Below are positions 32,741-41,871 of a stretch of 64,000 nt of DNA, one piece after another. Position numbers and translations under genes: made by a program. The DNA comes from an uncultured Amylibacter sp. (GTDB lineage Bacteria > Pseudomonadota > Alphaproteobacteria > Rhodobacterales > Rhodobacteraceae). Each line of letters begins with the position of its first letter. The first letter of the stretch is position 1. The notes under the pieces were generated by a model. It was not told the origin of the DNA. It made no database searches and saw only the letters and a list, made by a program, of their open reading frames with translations. Location: positions 248,001 through 312,000 of the forward strand of contig CANMGS010000002.1 in assembly GCA_947497475.1 (NCBI GenBank), in the 5' to 3' direction.

Positions 32741-35356
32741 ATGAATGATTGGGATGATACCGACGCTTTTGAACAAGCAGAAAAGCGCAGCCTGTCGCAA
32801 ATGGCGATGGGTGCGCGGCCGACACCGTATTTGGAAGGCTTGAACCCAGCACAGCGCGAGGCGGTGGAAACACTGAATGGACCTGTGTTGATGTTGGCGG
32901 GTGCGGGGACGGGTAAGACCAAAGCGTTAACTTCGCGTATTGTGCATTTGTTGAACACGGGTACCGCGCGGCCGAATGAGATTTTGGCGGTGACCTTTAC
33001 CAATAAAGCGGCACGCGAGATGAAAAATCGTGTGGGCGGCATGTTGGGTGAAATGGTGGAAGGGATGCCTTGGTTGGGCACGTTCCATTCGCTTTGTGTG
33101 AAAATCTTGCGCCGCCATGCGGAACTGGTTGGGCTGAAGTCTAATTTCACTATTTTGGATACGGACGATCAGAAGCGGCTGTTGAAACAGTTGATTGTTG
33201 CTGCAAATGTAGACGAAAAAAGACATCCACCTAGATCACTTATTTGGTTAATTGATCAATGGAAAAACCAAGCCTTTCCACCAGAGAAAGTACCTGTTTC
33301 TCAAGATGTCGAACTTTGGGCCGACCGTTTGTATAATGAAAGTGAAATTAAGAAAGCCGAGCGTTCTTATGAATTTGATCGGCGTAACCCAGAAAGTGGG
33401 GCAATTGGGCGAAAGACTGTTTTGGGTTCAGAACTCTATGCCCAATATCAGGCGCGATTGAAAACGTTGAATGCGGCTGATTTTGGGGATTTATTACTGC
33501 ATGTGGTGACGATCTTCCAAGCGCATCCTGATATTTTGCAGCAGTACCAGCGTTGGTTTAAATACATTCTGGTGGATGAATACCAAGATACCAACGTGGC
33601 GCAGTATTTGTGGCTGCGCTTGTTGGCATCGAACCATAAGAACATCTGTTGTGTCGGTGATGATGATCAATCGATCTATGGCTGGCGCGGTGCTGAGGTG
33701 GGCAATATCTTGCGGTTTGAAAAGGATTTCCCTGGGGCGCATGTTGTTAAGCTGGAGCAGAATTATCGGTCTACGCATCATATTCTGGGGGCTGCCTCTG
33801 GTGTTATCAATGGCAATGAAGACCGTCTGGGTAAAACGCTTTGGACGGATAAAAAAGACGGCGACAAAGTCCGCTTGATCGGTCATTGGGATGGTGAGGA
33901 AGAAGCACGTTGGATCGGCGATGAGATTGAAGATGCGCAAGCTGGACGTGGTAAATATAAATACCGCAGTAACCCTAGATCTCAAACATTTCAACAAGAG
34001 CAAGACCGCTTAGATAAAAATGCAGCGGCGCGAGAAGCTCCAGGAGTAACAGTTGGGAAAGCTGGAGAATACGACCACGATTATAAAACACGTAGTTTAC
34101 ATGATCATGGAGCTACGCATAAAGATGGATTTTCATTAGATGAGATAGCAATCCTTGTGCGTGCCTCACATCAAATGCGGGCGTTTGAAGATCGGTTTCT
34201 AACCATTGGCTTGAACTACCGCGTGATCGGTGGGCCGCGGTTTTATGAGCGGATGGAGATCCGTGATGCGATGGCTTATTTCCGTGTCGCGGTTTCGAAC
34301 GAGGATGGTTTGGCGTTTGAGCGGATCGTGAATACGCCGAAACGCGGAATTGGCGATAAGGCGCAGCAGATCATCAACCAAGCGGCGCGTGAAAATGGCG
34401 TGTCGTTGTTAGAAGGTGCACGGATTGTTGTGGAAGAGGGTGGTTTGTCTGCCCGTGCGCGCAATTCATTAAAGCAGTTGGTGGAAGGCTTTGATCGTTG
34501 GACAGCTGCTATTCGTGATGGTGCGATGAGCCATATTGAGGTGGCTGAACTTATTCTGGATGAAAGCGGTTATACGGATCACTGGAAGAATGACAAAACG
34601 CCAGAAGCGCCTGGGCGCTTGGAAAATCTGAAAGAATTGGTCAAAGCGTTGGAAGAATTTGAGAATCTGCAAGGGTTCCTAGAGCACGTCAGCCTGATCA
34701 TGGACAATGAGCAAGAGGCGGATACGCCTAAGGTCAGCATTATGACATTGCATGCGGCCAAAGGTTTGGAATTTCCTGTGGTGTTTTTACCCGGCTGGGA
34801 AGATGGGTTGTTCCCATCGCAACGCGCTATGGATGAAACAGGCCAAAAGGGTGTCGAGGAAGAACGACGTTTGGCCTATGTGGGGATCACGCGCGCGGAA
34901 GAGTTTTGTACGATCAGTTTTGCGCAAAACCGCCGTGTTTATGGGCAGTGGCAAACACAAATGGCATCGCGATTTGTGGATGAATTACCGCCAGAACATG
35001 TTGAGGTTCTCAGTGCACCCGGGCTTTATGGTGGCACCAGTGGTGGGGCAACCATGCAATCTGACTTGGCGGATCATGCGGCAAGGGCAGATGCTTATAA
35101 TTCTCCGGGTTGGAAGCGGATGCAGGCACGGACTGCTGGGGCAACGGTGATTCCATCAAAGCCACGTAAACCGCTGATCATTGATGCAGAATCTGTGCCA
35201 GATTTTGGGATCGGTGATCGTGTGAACCACGGGAAATACGGCAATGGAACGGTTATTGGTGTAGAAGCTGATAAGTTGTCGATTGTGTTCGATGGTGGCG
35301 GGGCCAAGAAAATCTTGGCAAGCTTCGTTCAAGCCGAAGATGAAGTGCCGTTTTAG
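32741..35356 (+). CDS. ATP-dependent DNA helicase UvrD/PcrA
   Basis: The 871-residue SF1A helicase unwinds DNA 3' to 5' in excision and mismatch repair and in clearing RecA or stalled RNA polymerase. Visible motifs: LNPAQREAV (Q motif), Walker A AGAGTGKT (53-60), TFTNKAAREM, GTFHSLC, VDEYQDTN (278-285), GDDDQSIYGWRG, LEQNYRS, IMTLHAAKGLEF and YVGITRAEE. The C-terminal Tudor-like RNA polymerase-binding domain (IGDRVNHGKYGNGTVIGV) is present. An extra 55-60 residues at about 403-463 (charged, no hydrophobic core) interrupt domain 2A; this DNA and another patch at about residues 155-210 use AGA, TTA and other AT-rich codons unlike the rest. uvrD versus pcrA naming is arbitrary. Confidence 0.95.
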   Translation: MNDWDDTDAFEQAEKRSLSQMAMGARPTPYLEGLNPAQREAVETLNGPVLMLAGAGTGKTKALTSRIVHLLNTGTARPNEILAVTFTNKAAREMKNRVGGMLGEMVEGMPWLGTFHSLCVKILRRHAELVGLKSNFTILDTDDQKRLLKQLIVAANVDEKRHPPRSLIWLIDQWKNQAFPPEKVPVSQDVELWADRLYNESEIKKAERSYEFDRRNPESGAIGRKTVLGSELYAQYQARLKTLNAADFGDLLLHVVTIFQAHPDILQQYQRWFKYILVDEYQDTNVAQYLWLRLLASNHKNICCVGDDDQSIYGWRGAEVGNILRFEKDFPGAHVVKLEQNYRSTHHILGAASGVINGNEDRLGKTLWTDKKDGDKVRLIGHWDGEEEARWIGDEIEDAQAGRGKYKYRSNPRSQTFQQEQDRLDKNAAAREAPGVTVGKAGEYDHDYKTRSLHDHGATHKDGFSLDEIAILVRASHQMRAFEDRFLTIGLNYRVIGGPRFYERMEIRDAMAYFRVAVSNEDGLAFERIVNTPKRGIGDKAQQIINQAARENGVSLLEGARIVVEEGGLSARARNSLKQLVEGFDRWTAAIRDGAMSHIEVAELILDESGYTDHWKNDKTPEAPGRLENLKELVKALEEFENLQGFLEHVSLIMDNEQEADTPKVSIMTLHAAKGLEFPVVFLPGWEDGLFPSQRAMDETGQKGVEEERRLAYVGITRAEEFCTISFAQNRRVYGQWQTQMASRFVDELPPEHVEVLSAPGLYGGTSGGATMQSDLADHAARADAYNSPGWKRMQARTAGATVIPSKPRKPLIIDAESVPDFGIGDRVNHGKYGNGTVIGVEADKLSIVFDGGGAKKILASFVQAEDEVPF

Positions 35357-35387: not shown

Positions 35388-35460
35388 AATAAAAACGGCG
35401 CCACAGGGAGAGGGTGACGCCGTTTTATGCAACACGATCTGAGGGAGGGCAGATCGGTAT
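35388..35460 (-). ncRNA. Cuckoo-like (CcsR-type) RNA downstream of DUF1127, two hairpins
   Basis: Reading leftward behind the DUF1127 stop, hairpin one is CGATCTG-CCCTCCCT-CAGATCG (35435-35456). Hairpin two is AAAACGGCGTCAC-CCTCTCCCT-GTGGCGCCGTTTT (35392-35426, one mismatch) followed by T-rich sequence, so it also serves as terminator. Both loops expose C/U-rich anti-Shine-Dalgarno sequence. This is the layout of the cuckoo family (CcsR1-4 in Rhodobacter sphaeroides), which lie next to a DUF1127 gene. The second stem could also terminate uvrD from the other side. Confidence 0.72.
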
Positions 35461-35472
35461 GAGTATTAAGTC

Positions 35473-35682
35473 TTAGTAGTTGTATACTGCGTAGATTGCA
35501 GATGCTTTGATGCCTGAACGGCTTAGGCCAAGATCGCCTAATTCGCGGTTAGTCAACTTGCTTAGCTCAGCAACTGTTTTGCGGTAAGCTAGGTAGTTCG
35601 CGACATCTGTTTTCACCATGTTGAATACTGATGTAAATGTGTCTGCAGAAGTCGGTTTGTATGTTTGTGTTAGGAATGCCAT
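35473..35682 (-). CDS. DUF1127 small protein (CcaF1-like)
   Basis: I take ATG 35682, with GGAG eight bases upstream, giving 69 residues (MAFLTQTYKPTS to the end). The C-terminal part, AELSKLTNRELGDLGLSRSGIKASA, is the DUF1127 (YjiS-like) signature. In Rhodobacter sphaeroides the DUF1127 protein CcaF1 is encoded with CcsR RNAs, binds RNA, and affects their maturation and turnover. The same neighbourhood here makes that role likely, though not shown. A frame from 35733 would add 17 residues without support. Confidence 0.88.
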   Translation of the reverse strand: MAFLTQTYKPTSADTFTSVFNMVKTDVANYLAYRKTVAELSKLTNRELGDLGLSRSGIKASAIYAVYNY

Positions 35683-35733
35683 TGGCTTGCTCCATTGTTT
35701 ATCTGATGACTTTAATTTAGGCATTCGGCACAA

Positions 35734-35768
35734 AAATTAAACAGATAAGGTTGCATTTCCGACATGCG
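35734..35768 (-). promoter_or_regulatory. Promoter-like box upstream of the DUF1127 gene
   Basis: On the minus strand GCATGTCGGAAATGCA (box at 35752-35768) is followed after ten bases by TTTAAT. A near-identical arrangement, with the same spacing, lies upstream of the second RNA unit at 35982-35998. The repeat strongly suggests a shared promoter or activator site. It does not match a plain sigma-70 consensus; an alternative sigma factor is possible. Confidence 0.55.
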
Positions 35769-35804
35769 TTTGGCGCATAAGTAGTTCTACCTATATGGAA
35801 TGCA

Positions 35805-35940
35805 CAAAAAGAAAAAGCGACGCCGCGGGAGGAGGTGCAGCATCGCTTTCTAACTTTGGACTGGGCTTCGAATGGGAGGAGTGAAGCTGCAATCCTATGT
35901 AAGGAAGGACTAAATGGGAGGTTTGTCCTTCGCTCTGTTT
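35805..35940 (-). ncRNA. Cuckoo-like (CcsR-type) RNA upstream of DUF1127, three hairpins
   Basis: On the minus strand three stem-loops follow one another. They are AAGGAC / GTCCTT with loop containing CCTCCC (35905-35930); GCTTC / GAAGC with loop containing CTCCTCCC (35865-35887); and a terminator-like stem AAAGCGATGC / GC-GTCGCTTTTT whose loop has the exact CCTCCTCCC motif (35827-35835). T-runs follow the last stem. The CCUCCUCCC loop motif defines cuckoo RNAs, which respond to heat and oxidative stress in Rhodobacter. Here the RNA precedes rather than follows the DUF1127 gene. Confidence 0.75.
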
Positions 35941-35956
35941 ATAAGATAGGTACTGG

Positions 35957-35998
35957 GTAAGTATTATTAAAGGGTCAATAATGCATTTCCGATATGCA
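35957..35998 (-). promoter_or_regulatory. Promoter-like box upstream of the three-hairpin RNA
   Basis: GCATATCGGAAATGCA on the minus strand (box at 35982-35998, arms TGCAT and ATGCA) is followed after ten bases by TTTAAT. It is the twin of the box before the DUF1127 gene. The first hairpin of the RNA begins about 50 bases downstream. Confidence 0.55.
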
Positions 35999-36052
35999 AT
36001 TATTGCATAGCTTTAGGGCTTGAAACAATACGCAGTTATACGGGCTATCGTG

Positions 36053-36889
36053 TCAATCAACTTTAGGTACAGAGCTGGGACATATTACATCAATATTCTG
36101 TTCTGGATTGGCATTGGGGCAAAAGAGTTGCATGCCATTAAGTGTAAACTCGCCAATGATAGATTGGGTTCTATCCGAGATGATCCAATCGGAAAACTGA
36201 CGAGCCATATCAATTTTTACATGTGGGTGTTTGGCAGGATTTACAAGGATGATGCCATAGGGGTTGAACAACATATCTTCGCCTTGGGCAACGATATCTA
36301 AATTACCTTTGTTGCCAAAAGACAGCCATGTGCCACGGTCAGACAATGTGTATGCTTCTATAGAGGCAGACATGTTCAAGGCTGCGCCCATACCAGCTCC
36401 AATTTCGCGGTACCAATCCCCTTGTGGTGATAAATTAAATGCGGCCCAAAGTTCACGTTCGCGCTTATGCGTGCCGCTGTCATCCCCACGCGAGACAAAT
36501 GTGTAATCATTCGATGATGAAAATGTAGTAAGTGCAGCTTCCAAATTTTCAAAGTTTGCTTTGTCTTTTGGACCAACGAGAACAAAGTCGTTGTACATGA
36601 CATCACGGCGATCAATGCCAAAGCCATCTGCCACAAAAGCATCTTCAGAGGAACGATGATGGACAAGTAAAACGTCGGCATCGCCGTTTTTTGCAATTTT
36701 AATCGCTTGACCTGTGCCAACTGCAACAACACGGACGTCTATGCCGGTTTCTTTTGTGAACTGTGGCAGTAGGTAATCATATAAACCTGAATTTTGGGTG
36801 GATGTGGTTGATGCAATTGTAATGAATTTATCTTCTGCAAAGGTCATTGTAGAAAAGAGCAGAAAGCAGCAGGCTGTTATAAAACGCAT
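36053..36889 (-). CDS. tupA: Tungstate ABC transporter, substrate-binding protein
   Basis: The 278-residue protein has a Sec signal peptide (about 1-18, cleavage after TFA), then ITIASTTSTQNSGLYDYLLPQF; the TTTS motif is the tungstate-binding signature of TupA. Other conserved parts are VAVGTGQAIKIAKNGDADVLLVHH and FVSRGDDSGTHKRERELW. It should bind tungstate in the periplasm for the TupBC importer. It directly follows tupC without a gap and is last in the operon, though the binding-protein gene is usually first. Confidence 0.92.
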   Translation of the reverse strand: MRFITACCFLLFSTMTFAEDKFITIASTTSTQNSGLYDYLLPQFTKETGIDVRVVAVGTGQAIKIAKNGDADVLLVHHRSSEDAFVADGFGIDRRDVMYNDFVLVGPKDKANFENLEAALTTFSSSNDYTFVSRGDDSGTHKRERELWAAFNLSPQGDWYREIGAGMGAALNMSASIEAYTLSDRGTWLSFGNKGNLDIVAQGEDMLFNPYGIILVNPAKHPHVKIDMARQFSDWIISDRTQSIIGEFTLNGMQLFCPNANPEQNIDVICPSSVPKVD

Positions 36890-41667: not shown

Positions 41668-41871
41668 TTATCTGATGAGGTCAGAAAAGAATGTTTTTGC
41701 GCATTCGCGGTTCACATCACTGCGTGTTAGGCCAATGTCTTTTAAGGCGTCATCGCTTAGACCCTTTAGTGTGGTGCGTTGGCTGTGCAATGTAAGTGCT
41801 TCAGCTATACGAGCAAAGAATGTTGGACGTTTTGAGCCGTGGGAGATGTGTGTATCGACGATGTATGTCAT
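41668..41871 (-). CDS. DUF1127 small protein
   Basis: This 67-residue protein ends with LKGLSDDALKDIGLTRSDVNRECAKTFF, the DUF1127 domain (L-S-D-x-x-L-x-D-I-G-L-x-R). The N-terminus (MTYIVDTHISHGSKRP) is basic and unstructured. AAAGGATC lies before the ATG. The family often shows RNA-binding or phosphate-stress roles. It differs from the DUF1127 protein at 35.5 kb and its upstream region lacks the GGAAATGCA box. Confidence 0.88.
   Translation of the reverse strand: MTYIVDTHISHGSKRPTFFARIAEALTLHSQRTTLKGLSDDALKDIGLTRSDVNRECAKTFFSDLIR

Follow-up and report, generated by a model that had tools for sequence, protein, structure and literature searches.

The locus described here appears to hold two adjacent units, an NfeR1-like small RNA and a CcaF1-CcsR-like operon, which an LsrB-type regulator probably drives side by side. 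It lies in the window analysed, a 64,000-nt stretch from an uncultured Amylibacter sp. of the Rhodobacterales (Paracoccaceae), whose genome amounts to 11 contigs and 3.02 Mb; among named relatives, Amylibacter sp. SFDW26 was the closest found, with a DUF1127 protein 94% identical to that of the locus. As summarized in Table 1, box 1, a three-hairpin RNA, box 2, the DUF1127 gene and a two-hairpin RNA follow one another on the minus strand from 36008 to 35388. The initial annotation had assigned three hairpins to the front and two to the rear of the DUF1127 gene (35682..35473, minus) on one strand, and position, strand and order were all correct, as was the claim of named anti-Shine-Dalgarno (aSD) motifs for four of the five loops; SL5, with CCCTCTCCC in its loop, departed from it. 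Ahead of the locus on the same strand, a PBP-superfamily binding protein is encoded (36889..36053), and a UvrD/PcrA-type helicase gene on the plus strand ends at 35356. Elsewhere in the window, a second DUF1127 gene (L003, about 41713-41817, minus strand) stands without the box and without aSD hairpins nearby.

Table 1. Features of the two-unit locus (positions in the window; RNA starts and -10 elements are predicted).
Feature	Position	Strand	Remarks
Box 1, ATGCAATAATTGCATATCGGAAATGCA, LsrB/VtlR-like, 27 bp, before upstream RNA	35982..36008	-	0 mismatches to regulon pattern
-10 element TATCTT, upstream RNA (inferred)	35943..35948	-	start then near 35936
Upstream anti-SD RNA, alpha-r14/NfeR1-like, about 131 nt, three hairpins	35806..35936	-	RF02344; fold z; own model R2
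SL1	35901..35935	-	loop CCTCCC; passes hairpin filter; covariation
SL2	35858..35895	-	loop CTCCTCCC; weak inner stem of only 5 bp; below hairpin filter
SL3	35812..35851	-	loop CCTCCTCCC; 15-bp hairpin, then T-rich run, terminator-like; passes hairpin filter; covariation
Box 2, ATGCGCCAAACGCATGTCGGAAATGCA, before DUF1127 gene	35752..35778	-	0 mismatches to regulon pattern
-10 element TAAATT, DUF1127 gene (inferred)	35714..35719	-	start then near 35707
DUF1127 gene, 69 aa	35473..35682	-	GGAG 7 nt before ATG; PF06568, E 6.5e-10
Downstream CcsR-like RNA, about 80 nt, two hairpins, 3' part of DUF1127 unit	35388..35470	-	RF02791; fold z; model R1
SL4	35432..35458	-	loop CCTCCC; passes hairpin filter; covariation
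SL5	35392..35426	-	loop CCCTCTCCC; then T run, terminator-like; passes hairpin filter; covariation

The clustering of the aSD hairpins exceeds chance. At a threshold of -5 kcal/mol, the hairpin filter was passed by four of the five hairpins inside 545 bp and by three more in the rest of the window on both strands, whereas between 0 and 5 such hairpins per 64 kb (mean 1.65) turned up when the entire minus strand was dinucleotide-shuffled 20 times. The folding z was -7.4 for the upstream unit and -7.0 for the downstream unit, none of 200 shuffles being as stable. In alignments that were small and drawn from related species (10 and 9 rows), 11 of 16 pairs of the upstream unit and 10 of 18 pairs of the downstream unit were changed on both sides yet still pairing, and pairing cells amounted to 88.1% and 92.6%, respectively, against at most 66.7% and 60.5% in sliding controls; the count of further pair types was no better than in shuffles (186 of 500 as high upstream, 284 of 500 downstream). 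Across the aligned relatives, the stems covary with C-rich cores retained in the loops, and at the level of the alignments this covariation supports both RNA units. SL2 was absent from the consensus structure and is therefore without covariation support of its own. Since the SL5 counterparts in four congeners (G025, G001, G006 and G009) carry CCTCCC, the SL5 motif looks eroded in the present genome. SL3 was missing from the list of a generic terminator scan because its loop exceeds the limit of that scan.

To place the arrangement within the genus, hairpins were mapped at one DUF1127 locus per genome, the best protein match, in 30 genomes, namely 29 of the genus including the present one (G000-G032 minus G011, G013, G024 and G029) and one of a sister genus (G035). 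Ten loci (G000, G018, G025, G001, G006, G009, G026, G021, G014 and G017) were bracketed, with aSD hairpins no more than 400 bp ahead of DUF1127 and no more than 350 bp behind it. Four others (G010, G019, G015 and G030) had aSD hairpins downstream and also 570-670 bp upstream, and the remaining 16 showed them on a single side or lacked them.

The initial annotation had called the hairpins aSD RNAs of the cuckoo kind, and this was supported. In covariance searches both units matched Rfam models over their full length, both below the gathering cut-offs. At gathering level, Rfam returned two tRNAs and nothing else in the 64-kb window. In a 1-kb search, the upstream unit matched ar14 (RF02344) with 46.8 bits at 35811-35941 over model positions 1-123 of 123, far above its 15 bits for CcsR1 (RF02791), and in the genome-wide search ar14 found it with an E-value of 2.2e-7. 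As 46.8 bits falls short of the RF02344 cut-off of 58.8 bits, we refer to the unit as alpha-r14-like, which implies no family membership by the rule of Rfam; the cut-off was reached in only one of the 61 genomes searched. Alpha-r14 RNAs are described as having three hairpins with aSD loops (PMC7143759), and the present unit likewise has three hairpins whose loops leave the aSD motif unpaired, SL2 being weak. The number of three had earlier been taken as unusual, a view that is not supported, since alpha-r14 has three and aSD hairpin RNAs with two, three and four hairpins are reported (PMC7143759, PMC3927594). Model R2, built by us from the upstream unit of 10 congeneric loci, matched the alpha-r14 genes of R. 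setariae (L100, E 4e-10; L107, E 3e-9). The reading of this unit as an enlarged CcsR was rejected; it resembles alpha-r14 of the NfeR1 type, for which three hairpins are normal.

The protein encoded between the two RNAs matched PF06568 with 39 bits (cut-off 23.3) and is a short DUF1127 protein like CcaF1. In the 1-kb search, the downstream unit matched CcsR1 with 25.4 bits at 35390-35467 over model positions 1-83 of 83, short of the RF02791 cut-off of 65.3 bits, and is thus named CcsR-like. Two hairpins stand after the DUF1127 gene and would belong to the 3' part of its transcript, the exact motif being absent from SL5. A CcsR1 search of the whole genome gave four matches up to E 10, the downstream unit not among them; the best of these, the upstream unit at E 0.73, was discarded, because control genomes also give matches and such genome-wide matches are thus no evidence. 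The scores of R2 and of R1, our own model of the downstream unit, partly reflect the loop motif, which is common to all such RNAs; R1 also matched the R. setariae ar14 locus L100 (E 0.0017). The association of the hairpin RNAs with DUF1127, proposed from the outset, was supported. Speculatively, the DUF1127 mRNA, with GGAG ahead of its ATG, could itself be an aSD target.

The same 27-bp box ahead of each unit lends sequence support to the earlier suggestion of two promoters. When starts were placed 7 nt past the -10 elements, the T-N11-A box halves came to lie at -71 to -58 of the upstream RNA and at -70 to -57 of the DUF1127 gene. In S. meliloti, the nfeR1 promoter is reported to carry an LsrB site, TGCA-N6-GCAT, at -72 to -57, and LsrB to be required for expression (PMC10746234); the alpha-r14 promoter trait is present here as TGCAATAATTGCAT at -71 to -58 of the predicted start, and the box thus stands at the same distance as in nfeR1. 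In an alignment of 10 species, most have the box ahead of each unit; further on comes an element of the TATATT/TATCTT type in the case of the RNA and one resembling TAAATT in the case of the DUF1127 gene. With up to three mismatches allowed, the box was found before the RNA in 8 of the 10 bracketed loci, before DUF1127 in 8 and before both in 7. The top -10-like hexamer stood 45 nt past the first box half in 6 of 10 RNA promoters; in the present genome, the top-scoring hexamer was at 50, TATCTT also being present at 45, and in the DUF1127 promoters the gap between box and hexamer varies. The -35 regions are poor at both promoters, and a generic promoter scan found no sigma-70 promoter on the minus strand, which counts against our reading. 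The conserved promoter feature is the LsrB-type box.

The exact sequence GCATRTCGGAAATGCA occurs twice in the genome, both times at this locus. With up to two mismatches, the box was matched 10 times in the genome and the reversed pattern twice, and one of the box matches precedes a second DUF1127 gene (C1:1553907); two of the four DUF1127 genes of the genome (L003 and L004) lack the box, a result counted against the main reading. For the genus, at most one mismatch being allowed, the pattern ATGCN7GCATNNCGGNNATGCA was matched at 69 places distributed over 30 of the 33 congeneric genomes and the reversed pattern nowhere. Of these, 28 stand within 450 bp before DUF1127 domains, 13 stand 41-58 nt before ar14 matches and 16 stand 42-97 bp after an LsrB orthologue (16 of 25 such genes, whose positions were taken in 24 genomes of the genus, G000-G024 minus G008), so that 57 are DUF1127, alpha-r14-like or LsrB/VtlR-orthologue sites and 12 are other. 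Three of the 12 are the opposite strand of sites already counted, those in G032, G031 and G027 stand after an LsrB orthologue, that in G011 precedes a SorY-like RNA and those in G007 and G002 precede aSD hairpins; the match at G019:C62 precedes a DUF1127 gene. At two places, L157 (G022:C26:24118) and L158 (G014:C3:26226), the box stands in a 3-kb stretch without DUF1127, LsrB orthologue or same-strand aSD hairpin, a finding that also tells against the main reading.

For loci beyond the genus, 41 of the 69 box sequences were combined into a matrix, with which 24 loci were scanned, each against 20 mononucleotide shuffles of itself. The best matrix match exceeded all shuffles upstream of DUF1127 in 6 of 11 non-genus DUF1127 loci (L040, L050, L051, L054, L055 and L159) and before the sRNA that follows lsrB in three of four loci (L151, L152 and R. 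setariae L154). In L154 the score was 19.4 at the first ar15/AbcR promoter, and no shuffle exceeded 13.5. In L042 the second-best match lay before DUF1127, in L041 the best match lay elsewhere, and L044, L046, L047 and L153 gave no qualifying match. The matrix failed in all Pseudochrobactrum-type loci tried (L044, L046, L047, L093, L094 and L153) and before the R. setariae ar14 loci L100 and L107, which likewise speaks against the main reading. In none of five non-genus ar14 promoters was there a match at the expected place; in L092 a match lay 136 nt upstream, and in L093 a match lay on the opposite strand. In Pseudochrobactrum L093 and L094, TTGCAATGCTGCATGACTGTTATGCATTATTG before ar14, recognized by eye and unscored, fits the published VtlR box GCAT-N3-TG-N3-T (PMC7486931) and resembles box 1.

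In R. setariae, LsrB was recognized from its neighbours, trxB in front and three ar15/AbcR genes behind, the position described for vtlR in Agrobacterium (PMC7486931). In the present genome, trxB is flanked by lrp and a sulfate adenylyltransferase gene without LsrB, the LysR gene in question lying elsewhere; a location of the regulator beside trxB was thus ruled out, and the orthologue was found by similarity instead (300 aa; L120:1362-2264, minus strand; G000:C2:472894-473766). It showed 43% identity at 266.8 bits, the next match in the genome reaching 124 bits, and the reverse search agreed (265.2 vs 166.9 bits), making the two proteins reciprocal best matches with nearly identical DNA-binding regions. 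Neither this protein nor its counterparts in four congeners examined contain any cysteine, and the redox-sensing C-terminal cysteines are accordingly absent, so that thiol redox sensing is unlikely here; in the aligned parts, two cysteines were found in each of the R. setariae and Pseudochrobactrum proteins and none or one in six other alphaproteobacterial proteins. The orthologue is followed by a SorY-like RNA (L120:1168-1253, minus strand), which reached 46.5 bits where the cut-off is 111 and is preceded at 52 nt by a diverged box. Of 16 loci searched, 13 gave SorY matches, all below the SorY cut-off, two others gave ar15, and L143 gave neither; SorY/SorX-like RNAs that follow the LsrB orthologue or its box are those of L122, L124, L125, L129, L131, L132, L135, L139, L141, L147, L150, L151 and L152. 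In R. setariae and Pseudochrobactrum, ar15/AbcR occupies that place after lsrB; the SorY-like RNA is possibly the Rhodobacterales counterpart of AbcR.

Each part of the locus has a published relative. The upstream RNA agrees with NfeR1/alpha-r14 of S. meliloti in its three aSD hairpins, in matching the whole Rfam model and in length (131 nt predicted here, 115 nt for NfeR1; PMC8844928), and differs from it in the score below the cut-off, in loops that are not three identical motifs, in adjoining a DUF1127 operon and in belonging to the Rhodobacterales. The second unit resembles the CcaF1-CcsR1-4 system of R. sphaeroides (RF02791, CIN1 locus) in the small DUF1127 protein (69 aa, and 71 aa in R. 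sphaeroides), in the adjoining two-hairpin aSD RNA and in the terminator at the end; however, one such RNA follows the gene here and four there, an extra RNA stands in front here, and the box is of the LsrB type, whereas an RpoHI/RpoHII promoter is reported in R. sphaeroides (PMC10253847), in which CcsR1-4, SorX and SorY are described as under alternative sigma factor control (PMC8307010). Like the cuckoo RNAs SmelA075 and SmelA099, which show adjacent hairpins with variable stems and a CCUCCUCCC-type loop each (PMC3927594), the units consist of neighbouring aSD hairpins, but the full CCTCCTCCC is found in SL3 only. The VtlR/LsrB regulon of Brucella, Agrobacterium and Sinorhizobium shares the orthologous regulator and a box that accompanies an aSD RNA, DUF1127 genes and the sRNA directly after the regulator; VtlR is reported to activate DUF1127 genes in Brucella (PMC12595884) and abcR1 together with the small gene atu1667 in Agrobacterium (PMC7486931). 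It differs in that the sRNA after the regulator is ar15/AbcR there and SorY-like here, where the regulator is not beside trxB and has no cysteine. The Caulobacter alpha-r8 RNAs (PMC12559287) were set aside as a comparison, as was uORF attenuation, for which a 279-nt leader is described (PMC12218461) and the predicted DUF1127 leader here is about 25 nt.

The hairpins with their covariation and homology, the box with its distribution and the regulator orthologue are read from the sequence itself. In the mechanism that we propose, in which transcription, regulator binding, processing and targets are predictions, the minus strand would give rise to an NfeR1/alpha-r14-like sRNA of about 131 nt with three aSD loops and to a CcaF1-like DUF1127 mRNA with a CcsR-like two-hairpin RNA in its 3' part, each from a weak sigma-70-like core promoter with the same box centred near -64. 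Because both units have this box, joint activation by the single close LsrB/VtlR orthologue of the genome is expected. The CCUCC loops of the RNAs would occupy GGAGG-like ribosome-binding sites and block translation of those mRNAs, in line with the reported regulation by NfeR1 through aSD motifs (PMC10746234, PMC8844928, PMC7143759), and the DUF1127 protein may bind RNA, as reported for CcaF1 (PMC10253847), and help RNA maturation.

Unlikely, in our view, is a single long operon in which transcription from the upstream promoter reads through SL3 and processing releases both RNAs and the DUF1127 mRNA, the upstream RNA being a CcsR copy placed in front. Such a layout would suit the cuckoo type of both units, the match of R2 to the downstream unit (E 5e-6) and the maturation of the R. 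sphaeroides CcsR RNAs out of a longer transcript, as described in PMC10253847 and PMC8307010, but a T-rich tail follows the 15-bp hairpin SL3, and a second box with a -10-like element stands between SL3 and the gene. The split or duplicated CcsR arrangement suggested in the initial annotation keeps the R2 match in its favour and is otherwise made less likely by the far better fit of the upstream unit to ar14 than to CcsR1, by the normality of three hairpins, and by four congeners (G027, G031, G022 and G020) that have alpha-r14-like RNAs with the same box and no DUF1127 domain within 450 bp downstream. That hairpins with C-rich loops are mere terminators or processing remnants without regulatory role is very improbable: T-rich tails at SL3 and SL5, the imperfect motif of SL5 and its position 35 bp past the UvrD-like gene, where it could end both transcripts, would fit such a role, yet SL1, SL2 and SL4 have no T run, the stems covary around retained C-rich cores, and two sRNA families match over their full length.

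Box and units could also be real with a regulator other than the LsrB/VtlR orthologue binding the box, which we regard as rather unlikely. The genome encodes more LysR-type proteins (the second match at 124 bits), LysR sites look alike, and the box is different in Brucellaceae-type loci; against this, the box occurs just after the LsrB orthologue in the 16 of 25 cases given above, agrees with the reported nfeR1 site both in form and in position (PMC10746234) and, as a matrix, finds the first ar15/AbcR promoter of R. setariae in L154. Activation by the LsrB/VtlR orthologue is the reading that we retain.

On a wider scale, we somewhat favour the view that LsrB/VtlR, an aSD RNA and DUF1127 form an old circuit common to Rhizobiales and Rhodobacterales, in which a SorY-like RNA of Rhodobacterales would hold the position beside the regulator gene that AbcR has in rhizobia, NfeR1-like and CcaF1-CcsR-like members would have been joined in one two-promoter locus in the Amylibacter group, and RpoH control of CcsR/SorY in Rhodobacter would be an added layer. 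Two points are new as far as literature searches show, namely an alpha-r14-like unit that adjoins a CcaF1-CcsR-like operon and has an LsrB-type box in common with it, and the proposed extension of the LsrB/VtlR circuit to aSD and SorY-like RNAs of Rhodobacterales; in the parts of the literature covered by these searches, no link was found between LsrB/VtlR and CcsR, CcaF1 or SorY. NfeR1/AbcR of rhizobia and CcsR/SorY of Rhodobacter, studied apart, would be linked through a single conserved regulator and a single DNA box, which offers a possible reason for the recurrent co-occurrence of DUF1127 genes and aSD RNAs, and the idea of a shared regulator is directly testable in Rhodobacterales.

Model R1 matched RNAs after DUF1127 in congeners, in the sister genus (G035, L159), in Salipiger (L050 and L054) and in Citreicella (L051). 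The loci L050, L051 and L054 carry 10, 11 and 7 aSD hairpins, respectively, within 1.5 kb after the DUF1127 gene, one of the ten in L050 standing well apart, and in all three the LsrB-type box before the DUF1127 gene is the best matrix match.
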